Assembly (NCBI GenBank): GCA_027064125.1
Contig: JAMOQF010000173.1
Span: 1-33,707 of the forward strand
Source: Acidobacteriota bacterium
Lineage (GTDB): Bacteria > Acidobacteriota > JAAYUB01 > JAMOQF01
DNA length: 33,707 nucleotides
Direction: 5' to 3'
In this document: positions 12,766-22,092 of the stretch, one piece after another
How the letters are laid out: every line of letters starts with the position of its first letter
Position numbering within the stretch: position 1 is the stretch's first letter
The notes under the pieces: model-generated
Databases searched by the model: none
What the model saw: only the letters and a program-made list of their open reading frames with translations
Told to the model about the DNA's origin: nothing
Position numbers and translations under genes: made by a program

Positions 12766-13977
12766 ATGTCAACTTCTAAAAAAATTCCCATTTACATCCA
12801 GATAATTATTGCCGTTATTTTAGGTATTCTGTCTGGAATCTTATTTCCTTCCCACTCATCCATAGGAAATTTCCTTGGAAATATCTTTTTAAAATTACTG
12901 AAAATGCTAATAGCGCCCCTTATTTTTTCTTCAATAGTTGTGGGAGTACTTTCAGCATCAAAAAGTGGAAATTTTTCAAAACTTGGAGTGAGAACACTCA
13001 TATACTATGTATCTACCAGTATGCTGGCAATTTTAACAGGTCAAATACTTGTAAACATAATAAAACCTGGATGCATCCACGCCTCCATTTTACACATGGA
13101 AAAAGTATCAAACTTTTCCACATCAATAGAGATAAGATTCACAGATACAATTCTAAAGATGATTCCAGAAAACATTTTTAGATCCTTTACAAAGGGGGAT
13201 GTTTTACCCATTATATTTTTCTCAATACTGGTGGGATTTTTCATAGGAAAACTAAAGGAAAGGGATGTGAAATTTCTATCTTCAATGTTTGAGGGGCTCT
13301 ACAACCTCATGATGAAAATAACTGAATTTGTGATAAAGTTAGCCCCTTATGGAATTTTCGGCCTCATATATGCAATTGTTGCAAAAAGTGGTATAAAAAT
13401 TTTTAAAAATCTTTTCTACTATTTTCTGACCGTATTCTCAGGGATTTTTGTCCATTTTTTTATAACGCTACCCCTAATCTTTTTTATATTTACAAGAAAA
13501 AACCCATACAAATTCATTAAAAATATGCTTTCTCCACTTTTAACAGCCTTTTCCACAAGTTCCTCCTCAGCGACACTTCCCCTTACCATAAAAACAATGG
13601 TTGAAGAAATAGGGGTATCAAAAGAAGTGGCAAGTTTCGTATTGCCATTGGGTTCAACCATCAACATGGATGGTACTGCCTTATATGAGTGTGTGGCAGT
13701 AATATTCATAGCCCAGGTATATGGGATCCACTTATCCTTTTCCCAACAGGTTATAATAGCTCTTACGTCACTTTTGGTATCAATAGGAGCGGCTGGAATT
13801 CCAATGGCAGGTCTTGTAATGATGACAATAATCTTAAAGGCAGTGGATTTGCCCCTACAGGGGATTGGTTTAATTATTGCAGTTGACAGGTTTCTGGATA
13901 TGTTCAGGACAGCAACCAATGTATTCAGCGATTCGGTGGGAACCTTTGTAATAGACTTCCTGGGCAAAAAAAATTAA
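12766..13977 (+). CDS. Dicarboxylate/glutamate:cation symporter (DAACS family)
   Basis: A 403-residue protein of the GltP/DctA family, normal length. It has ~8 transmembrane helices and the family's substrate-binding elements: the serine-rich hairpin 'AFSTSSSSATLPLTI' (HP1), 'LPLGSTINMDGTALYE' (TM7, with NMDG sodium-site residues), 'GAAGIPMAGLVMM' (HP2) and 'VDRFLDMFRTATNVFSD' (TM8). It should import aspartate, glutamate or C4-dicarboxylates with Na+ or H+; the TM8 residues alone do not settle the substrate. The start ATG has no clear ribosome site. It sits back to back with the NhaD-like antiporter, and a sodium-coupled pair would make sense (inference). Its stop overlaps the convergent archaemetzincin gene by four bases. 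Confidence 0.92.
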   Translation: MSTSKKIPIYIQIIIAVILGILSGILFPSHSSIGNFLGNIFLKLLKMLIAPLIFSSIVVGVLSASKSGNFSKLGVRTLIYYVSTSMLAILTGQILVNIIKPGCIHASILHMEKVSNFSTSIEIRFTDTILKMIPENIFRSFTKGDVLPIIFFSILVGFFIGKLKERDVKFLSSMFEGLYNLMMKITEFVIKLAPYGIFGLIYAIVAKSGIKIFKNLFYYFLTVFSGIFVHFFITLPLIFFIFTRKNPYKFIKNMLSPLLTAFSTSSSSATLPLTIKTMVEEIGVSKEVASFVLPLGSTINMDGTALYECVAVIFIAQVYGIHLSFSQQVIIALTSLLVSIGAAGIPMAGLVMMTIILKAVDLPLQGIGLIIAVDRFLDMFRTATNVFSDSVGTFVIDFLGKKN

Positions 13978-14525
13978 AGCACTTCATCTAATTTTTCAAA
14001 ACAACTCTCACAGGGATAAATGGATTTCCTATCTGTATCTTCAATTGTAAAGGAGTTGTGCATAACACATAGATCATTCAAACAGTGAGTGAGTCCAAAG
14101 GTATGGCCAAGTTCATGAACTATTTCCTTCAAAAGCCTTTCTTTAAATATTTCCACATTGGGAGTCCTATCATAAAATCTCTCACACAATCTGTTAGTGG
14201 AAACAATACAGTAATTTCCATTTAAATGTGCCTCTCCAAATACAAATGTTAAAATGGGGATAAATAGATCCTTTCTCACTATAATACATTTCTTATCTCC
14301 ATCGCTAATGGAATGATTAAAAATAAAGTATCTTAAAATCTCAGTGGAATGATATTGATCTCTAATGGGATCAAAAAATTTATCAAGGGAAAGAGACTCA
14401 AATTGTATAATAATTCTCCTCCTGAATATGTTTGACAACTTTTCAATCATATCACTGTCAATATAAGACTTTGGAACATCCACAAGGGAAATAAATATCT
14501 TTTTCTCACTTCTTTGAAATACCAT
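13974..14525 (-). CDS. amzA: Archaemetzincin zinc metalloprotease
   Basis: A 183-residue archaemetzincin. The extended zinc motif HExxHxxGxxH is present as 'HELGHTFGLTH', followed by the family's second zinc site: cysteines in 'HCLNDLCVMHN' (with the metzincin Met) and 'CESC' near the C-terminus. N-terminal segments 'FGEAHLNGNYCIVS' and 'RLLKEIVHELGH' also match. It is a soluble cytoplasmic protein with no signal peptide. The natural substrate of prokaryotic members is unknown. It is the last gene of the haem-kinase/sigma-54 regulator operon. Its ATG lies inside the 3' end of the regulator (20-base overlap) without a clear ribosome site, implying coupled translation. Confidence 0.92.
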   Translation of the reverse strand: MVFQRSEKKIFISLVDVPKSYIDSDMIEKLSNIFRRRIIIQFESLSLDKFFDPIRDQYHSTEILRYFIFNHSISDGDKKCIIVRKDLFIPILTFVFGEAHLNGNYCIVSTNRLCERFYDRTPNVEIFKERLLKEIVHELGHTFGLTHCLNDLCVMHNSFTIEDTDRKSIYPCESCFEKLDEVL

Positions 14526-15858
14526 ATTTTTTCATTTTATTGTAAAGAGTAGTTCTATCAATATCAAGCACTTTAGCGGCCTGAGAAACGTTATAATCAC
14601 ATTCTTCAAGAACTTTTTTTATGTGGATCTTTTCAAGTTCTGAAAGAGAAAGCCCAGAAGGAATATCAAATTTATCATCTTCATTTCCCATAAATGAAAA
14701 ATCCTCAGTGGTGATTAACTTTCCTCTGGCAACCACAAAGGCTCTCTCGACCGCATTCTCAAGTTCCCTTACATTCCCTGGCCAGGAATAGTGCATCAAT
14801 TTTTTTAACGCTTGAGGTGTGACACCTTCTATATCTTTTCCCATTCTCCTTCTAAGTTGTTTCACGAAATGCTCCACAAGAAGAGGTATATCCTCCTTCC
14901 TTTCTCTGAGCGGTGGGATATGAATATTATAGACATTTAACCTATAAAAAAGATCTTCCCTGAACTTCTTTTCTTCCACCATCTTTCTCAAATCTCTATT
15001 TGTGGCAGAAATAACCCTAAAATCAACTTTTATGGTTTTATTGGAACCAATCCTAGAAATTTCCTTTTCCTGTAATACCCTCAAAAGATCAACCTGCATC
15101 TTAGGAGTCAATTCACCTATTTCATCCAGAAAAAGTGTACCCCCATTTGCAGATTCAAATTTTCCCTTCTTTTTATACAGAGCCCCGGTAAAGGCCCCCC
15201 TTTCATATCCAAAAAGTTCACTTTCTATCAGTCCCTCAGGCAGTGCCCCACAACTTACCACCACCAGGGGTTCAAACCTTCTCATGCTGGCATAGTGAAT
15301 AGCCCTTGCAACCATCTCTTTACCTGTTCCACTTTCTCCAGTTATCAACACTGAAACATCTGTTGGTGCAACCTCTTCAATTGATTTTAAGACCTTTTTA
15401 ATTCCTTTACTCTCACCAACTATGTGTACCTGTTTTAGGGCAGATTCAAGTCTTTCCTTTAATTTTACATTCTCCCTCTCAAGATCTCTGTGGGATACAA
15501 TCTTTTTTACAAGCATTGACACATACTCAGGATCAAAGGGCTTTGTAAGATAATCATAAGCCCCCAATTTCATGGCCTCAACCGCTGTGTTTATGGAAGC
15601 ATATGCGGTCATCATTATCACATCAATAAAAGGATACGTGGATTTTATCTTCTTCAAAACTTCAATTCCATCTATACCTGGCATCTTAATATCCAGAAAA
15701 ACAATATCCACCTCTCTCCTTCCCAAAAAGTTAAAAGCATCATCTGCATTTTCTGCAGTAAACACCACATATCCATCTTCCTCCAACCAATTTTTCATGG
15801 ATTCCCTAACAATTAATTCGTCATCCACAATTAATATGGTTATTTTTTTTCCTTCCAT
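14506..15858 (-). CDS. Sigma-54-dependent (NtrC-class) response regulator
   Basis: A 450-residue regulator with three domains. Receiver (1-~120): acidic pocket D12-D13, phospho-acceptor D56 in 'VFLDIKMPG', and K106. AAA+ domain (~146-375): Walker A 'GESGTGKE' at 174-181, the sigma-54 contact loop 'GAFTGA' at 221-226, Walker B 'GGTLFLDEIGE', and arginine-finger region 'FREDLFYRLN'. Fis-type helix-turn-helix at the end ('NVSQAAKVLDIDRTTLYNKMKK'). All signature residues are intact. Ten bases separate it from the upstream haem-motif kinase, its likely partner. It probably activates its own operon, because a consensus sigma-54 promoter and inverted repeats lie ahead of the first gene, about 5 kb upstream. 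Confidence 0.96.
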   Translation of the reverse strand: MEGKKITILIVDDELIVRESMKNWLEEDGYVVFTAENADDAFNFLGRREVDIVFLDIKMPGIDGIEVLKKIKSTYPFIDVIMMTAYASINTAVEAMKLGAYDYLTKPFDPEYVSMLVKKIVSHRDLERENVKLKERLESALKQVHIVGESKGIKKVLKSIEEVAPTDVSVLITGESGTGKEMVARAIHYASMRRFEPLVVVSCGALPEGLIESELFGYERGAFTGALYKKKGKFESANGGTLFLDEIGELTPKMQVDLLRVLQEKEISRIGSNKTIKVDFRVISATNRDLRKMVEEKKFREDLFYRLNVYNIHIPPLRERKEDIPLLVEHFVKQLRRRMGKDIEGVTPQALKKLMHYSWPGNVRELENAVERAFVVARGKLITTEDFSFMGNEDDKFDIPSGLSLSELEKIHIKKVLEECDYNVSQAAKVLDIDRTTLYNKMKKYGISKK

Positions 15859-15867
15859 TTTAACCCC

Positions 15868-17430
15868 TCAATTTACAGGTAATTTTATTGTAAAGGTTGT
15901 ACCTTTATTCACAGTACTTTCAGCACTTATTGTGCCACCAAATTGCTGGATAATTCCATACACAACGAAAAGTCCTATACCAACACTTTTCCCATCATCC
16001 TTAGAAGAATAAAAGGGCTCAAAAATATGCTTTAGATGTTCTTTTGGGATTCCCACCCCTTCATCAGACACTTCTATTTCAATTACCCTATCAATTTCAT
16101 TGTATTTAGCAGTAATCCTGATTTCCCCTCCCATGGGCATGGCATCTATTGAATTTTGAATTAAATTCATAAATACCTGTTGAAGTTTATTGGGATCTCC
16201 CTTTATAGGTGGCAGGTTTTCTTCTATTTCAAGACTAATGACCACATTTAAGTCCTTTATTTTTAAATCCATCATTCTTTTTGCCTTCTCTATCACATTA
16301 CCGACATGGATTGTAAGCATGGGAGCACCAGATTCATTCCGGGAAAAGGCAAGTAATTCCTTTACCATGTTTCCACATCTTTTTGCTTCATTTTCCATTA
16401 ACTTTAACTGTTCCTCTATTTTTTCAACGTCCTTTTCTGTAAAATTTTTTTTCTTCAGTTGTTTCCTTATAAGATTTATAAATATCACAAGTCCAGAAAT
16501 TGGATTATTTATTTCATGTGCTATCACGGCTGCAAGCCGCCCAAGGGAAGACATTTTCTCTGCCTCAAGTATTCTCTTTTGAGCCATCCTCAACTTTTCA
16601 GTCTTTATTTCAACTTTCTTCTCAAGATTTCTCGTAAGATCATCTACTTTAAGGACCATTGTGTTAAAAGCCCTTGCAAGTTCACCTATTTCATCTCTAT
16701 TCTGAACAGGAAGTTGAACATTAAAATCCCCATCAGCGACCCTTTTTGTACCATTGACAAAATCCCTTAAGGGATGGGTTATAAATTTTTTAATCATAAG
16801 AATTATGACAAAGGAAAAGAAAAATATAAAAAATATAGAAACAAACAATATAGCCTTTTCACTCTGTCTCCGGGTTTGGTACAGTTTTTCAGTACACACG
16901 GAAATGTCTAAAAAACCCAATATTTTTTCCCTGTTGCTATGGGCATGGCATGAAGCATTATAACACTTTGGCTTATTGTAAATGGGAGTTATCCCCTTTA
17001 ACTTACAGGAGGTTTCATTACCCCTTTCATAAAAAACAAGGGACTTATTTTTTTTCAGGTTTTCCCTACTATGACATACAAGGCACTTTTTACTCTTATT
17101 TTTTAAGAAAACCTTTCCAAGTTCCCCTTTATCTTTTGAAGCACATACCTTTCCAGAGTGATCTATTATCCGCAAATCCTTTATCAATTTCTGTTTTCCA
17201 ATCAATCTAATGGTTTTATTAATTGCATCAGTATTATTTGACATCATGTCAAATTCAAGAGAATTTAGAATCGTTTCTGAAATGGAATTCATATCCAAGA
17301 ATAGATACTCCATATAAATTTTTCTCTGATATTTTAAAAGTAAAAATGTAAAAAAGAAAAAGGCCACCAGAAGGGCGGTGGCCACAATTAAACCAATCTT
17401 AAAGGTTATTGAGTTAAATCCCTTTCCCAT
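15868..17430 (-). CDS. Sensor histidine kinase with two c-type haem motifs, HAMP domain
   Basis: A 520-residue kinase. Membrane segment 1 is ~10-33, a periplasmic sensor is ~34-194, membrane segment 2 is ~195-217, and a HAMP domain is at ~214-268 ('DGDFNVQLPVQNRDEIGELARAFN'). HisKA has H305 ('HEINNPISG', NtrB-like). HATPase_c has 'NLIQNSIDAM', 'DEGVGIP' and 'GIGLFVVYGI'. The sensor carries CxxCH at 116-120 ('CLVCH') and Cx4CH at 156-162 ('CYNASCH'), so it may bind two covalent haems and sense redox, oxygen or NO (inference). I start it at the ATG at 17430, with TAGGA ahead, rather than an upstream codon that would overlap the hybB-like stop. Gene order pairs it with the sigma-54 regulator. 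Confidence 0.92.
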   Translation of the reverse strand: MGKGFNSITFKIGLIVATALLVAFFFFTFLLLKYQRKIYMEYLFLDMNSISETILNSLEFDMMSNNTDAINKTIRLIGKQKLIKDLRIIDHSGKVCASKDKGELGKVFLKNKSKKCLVCHSRENLKKNKSLVFYERGNETSCKLKGITPIYNKPKCYNASCHAHSNREKILGFLDISVCTEKLYQTRRQSEKAILFVSIFFIFFFSFVIILMIKKFITHPLRDFVNGTKRVADGDFNVQLPVQNRDEIGELARAFNTMVLKVDDLTRNLEKKVEIKTEKLRMAQKRILEAEKMSSLGRLAAVIAHEINNPISGLVIFINLIRKQLKKKNFTEKDVEKIEEQLKLMENEAKRCGNMVKELLAFSRNESGAPMLTIHVGNVIEKAKRMMDLKIKDLNVVISLEIEENLPPIKGDPNKLQQVFMNLIQNSIDAMPMGGEIRITAKYNEIDRVIEIEVSDEGVGIPKEHLKHIFEPFYSSKDDGKSVGIGLFVVYGIIQQFGGTISAESTVNKGTTFTIKLPVN

Positions 17431-17437
17431 TTTATTC

Positions 17438-18565
17438 CTAATTTGTGGAATGTTCCTCTTCAAAAATATCAAAATGTTTTACTGCAAAGCCAAAAATCAT
17501 AAAGCATATCACCACAAAGGAAGCGGATACGGCTATTTCCTGCCACGATGGAAAATAATGGGCCTTTGCGGAATACTCCATCGCCGTTGTGGAAACATTC
17601 AATCTATTTAATAAAAATCCAAGCACATAGGAAAATCCCGCAACAAATACGCCTGCTCTTTTGGAGATCCACTTTCTATTAAACACAACAATTGTTGGGA
17701 TAAGTGTCCACATTATAAATTCAAGCCACCACATAAAGGAATAAAAAGTTCCATCAAATAGATAGTGCAACTTATTGTGAACCAATAGATCTTCAAAATA
17801 TGCCACGAAAAAGGTTAACTGGATAACAACCATTCCCCTTGCAAGGTTGGCAAGAATCTCTGTGGGAACCTCATGCTTTAAAGCCCTCCAACTGAGATAG
17901 GATTCCACTATTGTCATCCCAAGACCAGCACCAATTGAAGTAATAAAAAAGTATACTGGAAGCAATTTCGAATACCAGAGAGGATATAATTTCTCAGGTA
18001 CAATTACATAGAGTGTCCCAAGAGAAGACTGGTGTAATGTGGAAATCAACACCCCTAAAATCACAAGTAAGATATATATACCCTTCAAAAAGTTGACAGG
18101 TTTCCTAAACCACTTAAATTTATCAAGGGTGAAGGAGGAAAATTCGAGAAAAAGTACAAAGGTATATGTCGCCACACAAAGCGCCAGTTCAAACATGGGA
18201 GAATGGTGATTCCAATATACAAGGGGATGCCAGATGTCAAAATATTTACCCAAATCCCATAAAAGTGCAATCCCTACAAACACATATCCCATAAATGCAG
18301 TTAAAACTGTTGGTTTTACAATGCAGTGATACTTTTTCAAATTAAAGATATATACAATGGCCGTAATTGTAAAGCCACCCGCAGCAAGTCCAACACCAGA
18401 AATTACATCAAAGCCAATCCACAATCCCCATGGAAATTTATCTGAAAGATGGGTAGCATAACCAAGCCCATAAAAAAATCTTTGAAATGTGGCAATTATG
18501 CCAAAAAGCAGGATTATAGCTGCAACAACTCTCCAGAAGGTTATCTTTATATTTTTAATATTCAT
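17438..18565 (-). CDS. hybB: HybB/NrfD-family integral membrane quinone-interacting subunit
   Basis: A 375-residue polytopic membrane protein of the HybB branch of the NrfD/PsrC superfamily. It has about ten hydrophobic helices. HybB-type signatures are 'FPWGLWIGFDVISGVGLAAGGF', 'SPMFELALCVATYTFVLFLEF', 'STLHQSSLGTLYVIVPEKLYPLW' and 'SIGAGLGMTIVES'. Family members anchor an iron-sulfur subunit and exchange electrons with menaquinone or ubiquinone across the inner membrane. In E. coli, HybB serves hydrogenase 2. No hydrogenase large or small subunit is encoded here, so the partner enzyme must be elsewhere or different. GGGAGGT precedes the ATG. It sits 12 bases after the HybA-like gene and 7 bases before the kinase. 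Confidence 0.9.
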   Translation of the reverse strand: MNIKNIKITFWRVVAAIILLFGIIATFQRFFYGLGYATHLSDKFPWGLWIGFDVISGVGLAAGGFTITAIVYIFNLKKYHCIVKPTVLTAFMGYVFVGIALLWDLGKYFDIWHPLVYWNHHSPMFELALCVATYTFVLFLEFSSFTLDKFKWFRKPVNFLKGIYILLVILGVLISTLHQSSLGTLYVIVPEKLYPLWYSKLLPVYFFITSIGAGLGMTIVESYLSWRALKHEVPTEILANLARGMVVIQLTFFVAYFEDLLVHNKLHYLFDGTFYSFMWWLEFIMWTLIPTIVVFNRKWISKRAGVFVAGFSYVLGFLLNRLNVSTTAMEYSAKAHYFPSWQEIAVSASFVVICFMIFGFAVKHFDIFEEEHSTN

Positions 18566-18577
18566 ATTTACCTCCCA

Positions 18578-19363
18578 TTAATCACTTTCACTCTTTTTTT
18601 CAGGTTTTACCCCATCATTTTCAGTAACCTCTATCTTTCTATTGTTCAGCCACCACATTCCCGTTAAAAATGTCGCCCATACAGGGACAATAACAGGTAT
18701 TTTATTTAAAACATTCCAGGTGAGTTCAGGTAGAGGTTTATTGGGTAAATCCATTCTCAATCCCATTTGAGCCACCTTTTTAAGGGGAACATCCTTAGGT
18801 ATAAGAAACATTACGCCTGTTCCACCAACTTCCTTTTCACCATAGACAAATGGATGGTACTTATCGGGATTCTCCTTTATCCTCTTATGTGCCATTTTTA
18901 AAAGTTCATCTCTTTCCCCAAAATATGTTGCACCACCACCTTCGTTTTGACATGCTTCCGCACATGCTGTGGGCAATCCCTTTTTAACCCTTGTGTCATA
19001 GCACATTATACATTTTCTAACCCTGGGTATGGGTTTATGCCACTCATATTTGGGGATACCAAAGGGGCAGGCAATCATACAATATCTACAACCTATACAG
19101 AGATCAAAATCATAAACAACAGGACCTTCCGGTGTTTTATGAAGTGCTGAAACTGGACAAACCGATGCACAGGTGGGATCCACACAATGTCTACATAAAT
19201 TTCTGAAATAGACATCATCTTCAATCTCTTCAAGGATGGTATAATTTGCGTAATTCAATTCCTTTCCAACTTCTCCCGGCAGGTGATTTTCTTTCTTGCA
19301 GGCTTCTGCACATACACCACAACCCAGACATTCAGTTATGTCTATAAGCATAGCCTTACTCAT
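18578..19363 (-). CDS. hybA: HybA-like ferredoxin subunit with four 4Fe-4S motifs and C-terminal anchor
   Basis: A 261-residue electron-transfer subunit. Four cysteine groups are in the HybA/DmsB/NrfC order: C12-C15-C18-C22; 'CRHCVDPTCASVCP'; 'CIGCRYCMIACP'; and 'CIMC' with a later 'CAEAC'. A hydrophobic segment near ~228-247 ('PVIVPVWATFLTGMWWL') matches the C-terminal anchor of HybA. Unlike E. coli HybA there is no N-terminal twin-arginine signal, as the protein opens straight into the first cluster ('MLIDITECLGCGVC'). It may therefore stay on the cytoplasmic side, or be exported by another route. A strong GGAGGG site precedes the ATG. A stable hairpin separates it from the small membrane-protein genes upstream. 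Confidence 0.9.
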   Translation of the reverse strand: MSKAMLIDITECLGCGVCAEACKKENHLPGEVGKELNYANYTILEEIEDDVYFRNLCRHCVDPTCASVCPVSALHKTPEGPVVYDFDLCIGCRYCMIACPFGIPKYEWHKPIPRVRKCIMCYDTRVKKGLPTACAEACQNEGGGATYFGERDELLKMAHKRIKENPDKYHPFVYGEKEVGGTGVMFLIPKDVPLKKVAQMGLRMDLPNKPLPELTWNVLNKIPVIVPVWATFLTGMWWLNNRKIEVTENDGVKPEKKSESD

Positions 19364-19453: not shown

Positions 19454-19481
19454 GAGCCATTCCCTCAAAAGGGAATGGCTC
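19454..19481 (-). terminator. Strong mid-operon hairpin (attenuator, terminator or processing site)
   Basis: Perfect 12-bp arms (GAGCCATTCCCT and its complement) are separated by a four-base loop. On the minus strand the stem is followed by TTAAATATTTTTAAA, a broken T-rich stretch. It lies between the second small membrane protein and the hybA-like gene, inside what otherwise looks like one operon. It could reduce transcription of the redox and regulatory genes relative to the first three, or protect the 3' end of a processed mRNA. The ~90 bases between the hairpin and hybA are almost pure A/T. Confidence 0.65.
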
Positions 19482-19509: not shown

Positions 19510-19701
19510 TTACTTTTCTTCGTCAGAATCTAAAGATTCCTTTTTTTCATCCTCTACAGGTTTTCCACCATCCTGAGCAAATACTAAATTGGAAGAAGGG
19601 GAATATTCACCCACACCTTCTCTTCTCCTTCTCAAGGAAAGCACTATTCCATCCACCACTAAAAAAGCCAATATGGTAAATATTACAAGTAATGCAACCA
19701 T
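19510..19701 (-). CDS. Tiny membrane protein with FAQDGGKP motif (copy 2)
   Basis: A 63-residue protein. One N-terminal membrane helix (~2-22, MVALLVIFTILAFLVV...) is followed by an arginine cluster (RRRR near 24-28), placing the tail on the cytoplasmic side by the positive-inside rule. The tail has 'VFAQDGGKPVED' and then an acidic, lysine-rich end. It is clearly related to the neighbouring 64-residue protein: same length, same helix-basic-motif-acidic plan, eight identical residues in FAQDGGKP. GGAGGT lies ahead of the ATG, formed by the last codons of the upstream gene, so translation is coupled. I know no named family for it. Confidence 0.8.
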   Translation of the reverse strand: MVALLVIFTILAFLVVDGIVLSLRRRREGVGEYSPSSNLVFAQDGGKPVEDEKKESLDSDEEK

Positions 19702-19704
19702 TTT

Positions 19705-19899
19705 TTACCTCCTTTCTTCATTTTTATTTTCTTCATTACTATCATCTTCTATGGGCTTACCACCATCCTGAGCAAAAACAGGTGTCCCTATAATATTTTC
19801 TGAGGCCACCTTCTTACGGGCACTTCTCCTTTTATATTCAAGGAAAGAGCCCACAGCACACATTGCAAAAAAAGTTAAAATTACTAATAATACAGTCAT
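19705..19899 (-). CDS. Tiny membrane protein with FAQDGGKP motif (copy 1)
   Basis: A 64-residue paralogue of the next gene. It has an N-terminal membrane helix ('MTVLLVILTFFAMCAVGS'), a basic stretch (KRRSARKK), then 'PVFAQDGGKPIEDD' and a charged tail. Its ATG overlaps the stop of the GcvH-like gene (ATGA), with GGAGG just upstream. Its final AGG AGG codons supply the ribosome site of copy 2. The start resembles that of the GcvH-like protein (MTPLLVILSMV), and that protein also carries an FAADGG motif, so all three probably share a membrane location or partner. Function unknown. Confidence 0.82.
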   Translation of the reverse strand: MTVLLVILTFFAMCAVGSFLEYKRRSARKKVASENIIGTPVFAQDGGKPIEDDSNEENKNEERR

Positions 19900-20723
19900 G
19901 ATATACCTCCATTATTTGTTTTTAGCGAAAATAAAAAATTTTCCACAAACTTATCATAGTTAACCTCCAGATCTTTAAAACTAATCACTCCACCATCTGC
20001 AGCAAATAAATCATTTCCGGTCATCTCTTTTACAAACTCCTCAATCTCATATCTGAACCAATTAATTGCTTCCTTCCCATAGAATAACTTCTGGAGGTCA
20101 ACCAAAAGGTGAAAGGGCTTTACAACATAAACCCAGGGGAATTTACTTACTTTTCCATTTAACTCTGTGAGAATATTTTCATTTATCCTCACGATTTCAC
20201 CAGAAATTGGAGAGAGAATTGGAAAAACTTTCCCATTTTTTACAATCCCAAAGGAAATGTCATCCATGTCCACAAACTCTCCCTCTTCAAATAACATAAT
20301 CTTTTGTGCATCTCTAAAAACACTTCTCAATAAGGGATCAACACCTACCCTCACATATCCATTTCTTTCAATATTTATGAATGTATGACCTCTGTGGTAA
20401 AAATAACAGGTATTAAAATCAAAACCTGAAACCTTTTCAACTCCACCTCTACATGTGGGACAAAAATTAACTTTTCCAAACCTTTGATGTATGTGACAAT
20501 CCATACATTCAAATTCATTTTCACAGATAACTTTATCCTTTAAAGCCCCTGAAAAAAAGTATCTACACACCTTTCTATTATCCCCCAATGAGAAAAACAA
20601 CTCTTTTAACCCCGTCAGCCTGTCAAAGGGGACCACCTCAGAATCCCTTTTTATTTTTTTCTTCCCCTCTTTACTTAAGAGGATCTCAAAAACCATACTC
20701 AATATAACAAGTAGTGGTGTCAT
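19896..20723 (-). CDS. GcvH-like (lipoyl-fold) domain protein with cysteine-rich N-terminal region
   Basis: A 275-residue protein. An N-terminal hydrophobic segment covers ~1-16. A cysteine-rich part has C53, C67, C73, C76, then C88 and C91 ('CPTC'), probably metal-binding. A domain at ~110-205 resembles glycine-cleavage H protein ('GHTFINIERNGYVRVGVDPLL', 'SPISGEIVRINENIL'). The lysine that would carry lipoate is shifted: K165 is seven residues before the SPxSG proline, where H proteins have it eight before, so lipoylation is doubtful. The C-terminal part has 'LFAADGG' (239-245), shared with the two small downstream proteins. No gcvT/gcvP is nearby, so a role in glycine cleavage is unlikely. 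First gene of the sigma-54 operon, with GGGAGGTG ahead of its ATG. Confidence 0.75.
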   Translation of the reverse strand: MTPLLVILSMVFEILLSKEGKKKIKRDSEVVPFDRLTGLKELFFSLGDNRKVCRYFFSGALKDKVICENEFECMDCHIHQRFGKVNFCPTCRGGVEKVSGFDFNTCYFYHRGHTFINIERNGYVRVGVDPLLRSVFRDAQKIMLFEEGEFVDMDDISFGIVKNGKVFPILSPISGEIVRINENILTELNGKVSKFPWVYVVKPFHLLVDLQKLFYGKEAINWFRYEIEEFVKEMTGNDLFAADGGVISFKDLEVNYDKFVENFLFSLKTNNGGIS

Positions 20724-20915: not shown

Positions 20916-21644
20916 TTACAGTCTCTTTTTTACAAAGTAGGAAACGACTATCCCTATCAGATATAAAATAACCATGGGAAGTGCAAAAACGGTCTGTGTT
21001 ACGGGATCTCCTGAAGGAGTTATTATGGCAGCAATTAGAAAAATTATAAAAATAGCCCATTTCAACTTAGAGAGTAAAAACTTGTAATCAATTATTCTAA
21101 AGAGGGTTAAAAATAAAATTAAAATTGGTAGTTCAAAAACAATCCCCATACCCAAAATAACGGTAATTGCAAGGGAAAAATACCCCTTCATAGTAATCAC
21201 AGGGATAAGGCCTTCTGCTTCCTGCATAAAAAAAGAGATCATATACTTTAACCCCACGAAATACCCAAAAAGCCCCCCCAACAAGAAAAGTGTTGTTGAA
21301 AAGAATATAAATGGAATTACAAACCTCTTCTCACTCTTATATAGAGCGGGAGAAATAAAAAGCCATATTTGATGTAAGATAAAAGGAGATGCAATAAAAA
21401 TACCGCTATAAAAGGAAATCTTTAAATAGGTAAAAAATGGCTCACTCAATTCATGAAAGGCAAAAACATTTTTATACTGCCTGGGCGCACATTTAAGCAG
21501 AGGAAGTGCAAGAAGTTGAAAAATTTCTTTATGAAAAAAATATGCAACAATAAACCCAAGTACCAGGTAAAAGAGTATCCACAAAACTCTATTTCTAAAC
21601 TCTTGAAGATGTTCCCAATAACTCTGTCTCTTATTTTTTTCCAT
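20916..21644 (-). CDS. tatC: Sec-independent (Tat) protein translocase TatC
   Basis: A 242-residue six-helix membrane protein that recognises twin-arginine signal peptides. Family features: 'YWEHLQEFRNRVLW' (family HLxELRxRL), 'FHELSEPFFTYLKISFYSGIFIASPFILHQIWLFISPALY' helix-loop region (usually 'P.E.F...K.s......P....Q.W.F..PgLy..E') with the important Glu retained, 'EKRF', 'FELPILILFLTLF', and 'AAIITPSGDPVTQTVFALPMVILY'. I start at the ATG at 21644 (MEKNKRQSYWEHL), with AAGGA upstream. An in-frame longer version would run far into the upstream Tat gene. It overlaps that gene by 14 bases. Confidence 0.95.
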   Translation of the reverse strand: MEKNKRQSYWEHLQEFRNRVLWILFYLVLGFIVAYFFHKEIFQLLALPLLKCAPRQYKNVFAFHELSEPFFTYLKISFYSGIFIASPFILHQIWLFISPALYKSEKRFVIPFIFFSTTLFLLGGLFGYFVGLKYMISFFMQEAEGLIPVITMKGYFSLAITVILGMGIVFELPILILFLTLFRIIDYKFLLSKLKWAIFIIFLIAAIITPSGDPVTQTVFALPMVILYLIGIVVSYFVKKRL

Positions 21645-21924
21645 CCAAATTTTTCCTTTTTTCAAGCACAATTTTCCTTCTTCTTTCAACTTCATCGGGG
21701 GGAAGAATAAGGTTCTCCACTTTCCCATCAATTTTGTTTATTTTCTTAAATTCCTCAAGTTTTATCTCCTTTTCCACACCATCTTTTAGATCTTCAAAAT
21801 AATTCTTTATTTCAGAATAAAATTTTCCAACTCCACGGGCAACTTCTGGCAATTTTTCAGGACCAAACAATACAAAAAAAAGAACAAAAAGTAGCAAAAG
21901 TTCTCCAAATCCTATGTCAAACAT
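21631..21924 (-). CDS. tatB: Twin-arginine translocase TatA/TatB-type subunit
   Basis: A 97-residue protein with the TatA/B plan: a short N-terminal membrane helix ('MFDIGFGELLLLFVLFFVLF'), the FGPEKLPE hinge, then an amphipathic helix ('VARGVGKFYSEIKNYFEDL') and a charged tail. The Glu at position 8 within the helix and the Pro after FG (FGPEKLPE) favour TatB over TatA. Its tail is longer than that of the neighbouring TatA. It lies between tatA and tatC, the common tatABC order. The TatA/TatB distinction is by position and motif only. Confidence 0.88.
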   Translation of the reverse strand: MFDIGFGELLLLFVLFFVLFGPEKLPEVARGVGKFYSEIKNYFEDLKDGVEKEIKLEEFKKINKIDGKVENLILPPDEVERRRKIVLEKRKNLDGKK

Positions 21925-21927
21925 ATT

Positions 21928-22092
21928 CTATTTTTTCCCTCCATTGCCCTTCTCATCTTCATCATTTATGGCACTTTTAAAATTCTTCAACGCCTCTCCA
22001 ATTCCTTTTGCAAGTTCCGGTAATTTTCTTCCTCCAAAAAGAAGAAGAAAAAGAATCAAAAGTAAAATTGCTTCACCAACACCTAATCTCAT
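21928..22092 (-). CDS. tatA: Twin-arginine translocase subunit TatA (54 residues)
   Basis: A short gene easily missed because of its length. Translation from the ATG at 22092 gives MRLGVGEAILLLILFLLLFG, then GRKLPELAKGIGEALKNFK and an acidic/glycine tail to TAG. This is the TatA layout: membrane helix, FG hinge, amphipathic helix with 'KLPELAKGIGEAL'. TatA oligomers form the Tat pore. Three bases separate its stop from the TatB-type start, and GGAGGG in its last codons serves that start. It is the first gene of tatABC. The 136 bases upstream, shared with the divergent thiamine-binding gene, are mostly A/T runs with no promoter I can call with confidence. Confidence 0.93.
   Translation of the reverse strand: MRLGVGEAILLLILFLLLFGGRKLPELAKGIGEALKNFKSAINDEDEKGNGGKK

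Follow-up and report, generated by a model that had tools for sequence, protein, structure and literature searches.

FAxDGG as a candidate docking motif of a GcvH-like protein and small membrane proteins in an apparently undescribed redox-signalling module of Acidobacteriota

Three neighbouring proteins encoded in the window, the 33,707-nucleotide stretch of Acidobacteriota DNA analysed here, share an N-terminal start and an FAxDGG motif. From sequence comparison, we put at about an even chance the reading that FAxDGG is a short linear motif of a redox-sensing module, with putative docking to the arm of that module formed by a response regulator and an archaemetzincin (peptidase family M54), and that the two smallest carriers would serve as extra tags. 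The GcvH-like protein, HmcB, HmcC/NrfD, a diheme histidine kinase, a sigma-54 regulator and M54 apparently constitute a conserved and undescribed redox-signalling module, and a literature search found no description of this GcvH-like/HmcBC/kinase/regulator/M54 combination.

Gene order and the three motif proteins

The minus strand carries, in order, two tatA-like genes, tatC, the GcvH-like gene, the genes for small motif proteins 1 and 2, an HmcB-like gene, an HmcC/NrfD-like gene, a histidine kinase gene, a sigma-54 response regulator gene and an archaemetzincin gene (Table 1). The stop codon of the GcvH-like gene overlaps the start codon of small protein 1 (ATGA), and small protein 2 follows after a gap of 3 nt. 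The first-pass annotation had reported three neighbouring proteins with an LLVI start and an FAxDGG motif, and they are present exactly as described: MTPLLVILSMV...LFAADGG in the GcvH-like protein, MTVLLVILT...VFAQDGGKP in small protein 1 and MVALLVIFT...VFAQDGGKP in small protein 2, with the start M-x-x-L-L-V-I common to all three. FAxDGG has three copies in the window, all within these genes, against 0.025 expected from composition in a six-frame translation. The two tatA-like genes and tatC lie directly upstream of the GcvH-like gene (20916-22092), and tat genes adjoin the GcvH-like locus in L047 and L135 too. Hairpins in the gap between small-protein and HmcB genes were also seen at the corresponding position of loci L025, L026, L045 and L046.

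Table 1. Features of the minus-strand gene cluster, in window positions
Feature	Positions	Strand	Support or remarks
GcvH-like membrane protein, 275 aa	19896..20723	-	Pfam GCV_H E 1.8e-7; AlphaFold model with GcvH fold
Parts of the GcvH-like protein			Helix, residues 2-19; Cys-rich insert, residues ~53-100; GcvH domain without lipoyl lysine; C-terminal FAADGG, residues 240-245
Motif FAADGG in the GcvH-like protein, loop between two C-terminal helices	19989..20006	-	AlphaFold; block pLDDT ~70
Small motif protein 1, 64 aa	19705..19899	-	One N-terminal membrane helix, charged linker, VFAQDGGKP, charged tail
Motif FAQDGG in small protein 1	19759..19776	-	
Small motif protein 2, 63 aa	19510..19701	-	Paralogue of small protein 1
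Motif FAQDGG in small protein 2	19564..19581	-	
Perfect hairpin in the gap from small protein 2 to HmcB; a T-rich stretch follows it	19454..19481	-	Terminator-like or processing hairpin; dG ~ -24 kcal/mol
HmcB/HybA-like Fe-S subunit	18578..19363	-	No Tat signal peptide; NCBIfam HmcB 236 bits, cut-off 420
HmcC/HybB-like membrane subunit of the NrfD family	17438..18565	-	Pfam NrfD E 2.2e-16; NCBIfam HmcC 308.6 bits, cut-off 550
Sensor histidine kinase	15868..17472	-	CxxCH and CxxxxCH c-type haem motifs
Sigma-54-type response regulator (receiver, AAA+, Fis-type helix-turn-helix)	14506..15858	-	Conserved family
Archaemetzincin (peptidase family M54)	13974..14525	-	Active-site signature intact; Pfam Peptidase_M54 E 4.6e-24

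The GcvH-like protein scores 31.6 bits against Pfam GCV_H (cut-off 22.2) and 23 bits against NCBIfam gcvH (cut-off 115.85). Its central domain has the fold of the glycine cleavage H-protein (PF01597), with a TM-score of 0.79 on the target against E. coli H-protein 3ab9, but it differs from that family in its N-terminal anchor, Cys-rich insert and C-terminal DGG element, and its neighbours are redox and signalling genes with no glycine cleavage genes among them. Lipoylation was considered and rejected, because the position of the lipoyl lysine is not conserved (K in 1/94 homologues); the window protein has G at this position and K one residue later. A GcvH-like protein recruited into an energy-metabolism gene cluster is also seen in LbpA of Hdr-like sulfur oxidation (PMC6067878). 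LbpA, however, carries lipoate and works with Hdr-like genes (PMC6067878), whereas the GcvH-like protein described here lacks the lysine and is encoded next to HmcBC, kinase, regulator and M54. Anchoring is not universal: some ten of the motif-bearing GcvH-like proteins, second copies for the most part, have no detected membrane helix. For small proteins 1 and 2, no Pfam or NCBIfam model scored above its cut-off. In the AlphaFold model of small protein 2, residues 2-30 form a helix and those that follow have no secondary structure.

Conservation of the motif and descent of the small proteins

A lack of conservation in homologues would have spoken against the shared motif, and the opposite was found: D and G are invariant in an alignment of GcvH-like proteins (48/48) whose identity to the window protein is 18-58%, and in 88/88 motif-bearing ones. 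The consensus of the latter (n=88) is [AVLTF]-[LA]-[AQP]-D-G-[GA]-x-P-V, and it mostly lies 23-33 residues before the C-terminus. In the AlphaFold model, the final two helices are joined by an exposed, flexible loop that holds the motif and lies outside the GcvH core. Among 24 small proteins from the genome of the window and related Acidobacteriota genomes, M1, L4, L5, V6 and FAQDGG are invariant (24/24). In the motif of the small proteins, codon comparison found 0.405 synonymous differences per codon and no non-synonymous ones (0); in their linker, where the sequence is scrambled, there were 1.84 non-synonymous differences per codon. Judged by these alignments, the motif is under strong purifying selection. 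An HmcB tail was examined as a fourth carrier (ENDGVKPEKK in the window) and rejected, as HmcB tails have no conserved DGG.

In a census of 396 Acidobacteriota genomes, many of them incomplete metagenome assemblies and all with gene calls made in this analysis, a profile of the small proteins found 20 small proteins, spread over six genomes from two families; where named, these are Acidobacteriota metagenome-assembled genomes. Searches of plasmid and viral collections found no relatives. Orphan FAQDGG small proteins away from the module were seen at L049 (8001-8213), L050 (3416-3628), L051 (4526-4738) and L052 (5947-6159), and these have a conserved tail, EV-x-W-E-D-V-x-K-K.

The same profile links the small proteins to the large one. 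All of its matches other than small proteins (20/20) were N-termini of GcvH-like proteins that had been found independently, 15 plain and 5 with a fused receiver domain, and together with the invariant start and motif this places the likeness beyond chance. At the C-terminal end, LAADGGKPV (L034) and VAADGGEPV (L132) in GcvH-like proteins match FAQDGG[KE]PV in the small proteins. In the GcvH tree, the small proteins accompany one clade, whose GcvH-like proteins have the Cys-rich insert. With both ends shared and the core absent, the description of the small proteins as the large one without its cysteine and GcvH parts holds, and they can be regarded as stripped GcvH-like copies that kept anchor and tag and lost the core. 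They probably arose by core loss from a duplicated GcvH-like gene, although we infer the direction from sequence and the reverse is possible.

The persistence of the motif in proteins without a GcvH core argues for an intermolecular tag, and to this extent the earlier idea of a docking tag or modification site is supported, although the partner proposed for it, HybA/HybB, is not. The features of a short linear motif, namely a short invariant stretch in a disordered and variable context within otherwise differing proteins, are all present. They suggest that each small protein is a minimal, membrane-tethered carrier of such a motif, with a putative binding partner. The tail of the small proteins is predicted to be cytoplasmic by the positive-inside rule, from the positively charged residues that follow the helix. 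A signal peptidase site (V-F-A|Q) was rejected, because about 20 mostly charged residues separate it from the helix and because GcvH-like proteins do not conserve AxA.

A further small membrane family, whose N-terminal helix is unrelated and whose tail reads LG[LV]TMADGGEK, was found at three loci in three other genomes. Its members (L028 4005-4253, L185 2758-2973 and L186 2832-3044) lie in loci with NrfD-type genes, and multihaem cytochrome genes adjoin them in two of the three loci, a Qrc-like arrangement.

Two explanations dispense with a tag. The motif might be a mere structural turn of the GcvH-like C-terminus, as its place between two C-terminal helices in the model would allow, and the small proteins might be decaying remnants. 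This we find very improbable indeed: the small proteins keep the motif without a GcvH domain and with no amino-acid change despite many synonymous ones, and they are maintained in tandem at 2-4 copies per operon in several genera. Small membrane subunits are common in respiratory complexes, and the small proteins could also be structural accessory subunits of the HmcBC-type complex, bound through the membrane helix like CydX or KdpF, with the motif secondary. M1, L4, L5 and V6 at the start of the helix are indeed as invariant as the motif, but the second small family combines an unrelated helix with the same motif, the orphan paralogues lie off the operon, and the strongest codon-level constraint falls on the motif, all of which makes an accessory subunit distinctly improbable.

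The partner of the motif

Of the 81 loci with a GcvH-like gene, 32 hold GcvH-like protein, HmcB, HmcC, kinase, regulator and M54 together, and the M54 gene directly adjoins the regulator gene in most complete loci. The window M54 protein (Pfam 85.9 bits, cut-off 24.4) has HExxHxxGxxHC and the downstream Cys, and the H/E/H/H and Cys residues are invariant in 18/18 homologues. The haem motifs of the window kinase are CLVCH and CYNASCH, and the pair CxxCH and CxxxxCH recurs in most homologues. About two thirds of the loci contain HmcB and HmcC. They resemble HmcB/HmcC of the Hmc complex and HybA/HybB in being Fe-S and NrfD-type subunits, but the window proteins score below the NCBIfam equivalog cut-offs, the window operon contains no hydrogenase or large haem subunit, and the window HmcB has no Tat signal. 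The Tat signal is likewise missing from the HmcB-like protein in about half the loci and present in others (L031, L033 and L145), so these subunits may not all lie on the same side of the membrane. In L136, L137, L147, L148 and L184, the HmcC/NrfD-like protein, or its open frame, has a C-terminal extension with haem-binding CxxCH motifs.

Among kinase-bearing loci, the motif occurs in 45/45 with a separate regulator and in 0/9 without one, and it is found in all 47 of the regulator-bearing loci (47/47). The nine motif-less kinase loci keep HmcB, HmcC and the kinase, but the separate regulator and M54 are gone, and a receiver domain is fused between the anchor and the GcvH domain. This fusion can serve as a 'Rosetta stone' for contact between the GcvH-like protein and the regulator. 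Chains combining anchor helix, receiver and GcvH-like domain were seen in L065, L066, L068, L036, L037 and L043 and further in L159, L161, L169, L170, L187 and L190. In those loci whose surroundings were retrieved, they adjoin genes for a haem kinase and HmcBC. In 23 motif loci, which are second copies or contig ends, neither kinase nor regulator lies within the fetched stretch.

The first-pass annotation had looked to HybA/HybB, here the HmcB/HmcC-like subunits, as the partner. It is conceivable that the DGG motif docks to HmcB/HmcC and recruits its carriers, large and small, to the electron-transfer complex, as the HmcB and HmcC genes come next downstream and occur in so many of the loci. 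However, HmcB and HmcC are kept in all nine motif-less kinase loci and therefore do not account for the motif, and two further genomes (G249 and G273) have non-fused motif-less GcvH-like proteins with HmcB/HmcC and no kinase, regulator or M54. Conversely, three loci (L038, L041 and L171) combine motif, kinase, regulator and M54 with HmcB/HmcC undetected. We consequently regard docking to HmcB/HmcC as improbable.

The motif tracks the regulator and M54, not HmcB/HmcC, which most likely places its putative partner in the regulator/M54 arm, though few independent losses (about 2-3) limit the certainty of this sequence-based assignment. On the gene tree there are about three changes of the motif, only 1 of them on strongly supported branches, so the locus counts do not represent independent events. 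Within this arm, motif and M54 can be compared genome-wide: 87 cases have both, 11 have neither, 1 has the motif only and 0 have M54 only. The exception, G334 (74% complete), has motif, kinase and regulator without M54, and no trace of M54 was found at the locus. Thus, M54 is not strictly required, and the case leans towards the regulator.

This agreement of motif and M54 in 98/99 cases also invites the explanation that the archaemetzincin of the module recognises DGG or cleaves there, and that clipping releases or inactivates the GcvH-like and small proteins according to redox state. The M54 gene adjoins that of the regulator, the active site is intact (18/18) and the motif loop is exposed and flexible. 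Archaeal archaemetzincins were inactive on many of the standard substrates tested (PMC3427221), which suggests a stringent specificity. Against it, G334 has the motif without M54, and M54 also stands alone in other genomes, where no DGG protein adjoined it at any of 20 loci. Moreover, the archaeal substrate groove has been interpreted as fitting basic, hydrophobic substrates, unlike the acidic DGG. A role for M54 need not be catalytic, since CarG of Myxococcus xanthus is an archaemetzincin homologue that acts in transcription regulation with its catalytic Glu lost. CarG parallels the present case as an M54 protein tied to a transcription regulator and differs in that the module M54 proteins keep the catalytic Glu (18/18). 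We consider a cleavage site unlikely on balance. Slightly less probable is the specific proposal that a bacterial archaemetzincin natively recognises or cleaves DGG within a redox-sensing two-component module, with the small proteins as membrane-bound decoy substrates. If archaemetzincin does recognise DGG, this would give the protease family a native substrate, where the literature found describes no natural targets.

Proposed role and significance

If FAxDGG is a docking motif for the regulator/M54 arm, HmcB/HmcC and the diheme kinase would report the quinone or periplasmic redox state, and the anchored GcvH-like protein may present a cytoplasmic DGG tag that holds, or is acted on by, the regulator or the neighbouring archaemetzincin. 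Direct fusion of a receiver to the GcvH-like protein would make the tag superfluous, and it would be lost along with the separate regulator and peptidase. The small proteins, at 2-4 per operon, would provide extra membrane-bound tags without a GcvH domain and would thereby buffer, compete for or cluster the partner. It is possible that the hairpin before HmcB gives more tag protein than downstream protein.

MicroProteins are small proteins consisting of one element of a larger multidomain relative. The small proteins described here are similar in that a small paralogue keeps only part of a multidomain protein, but what is kept is a membrane anchor and a short linear motif, and no dimerisation domain. 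We file them as putative small membrane regulators or scaffolds built from the pieces of a larger partner.

FAxDGG offers a concrete, testable tag with few candidate partners, in an apparently undescribed Acidobacteriota signalling module in which membrane subunits of the quinone type meet a diheme sensor kinase, a sigma-54 regulator and an archaemetzincin. The small proteins are an apparent case of bacterial small proteins derived from a larger partner by removal of its core, with anchor and tag kept, and the module may give a handle on the role of bacterial archaemetzincins.
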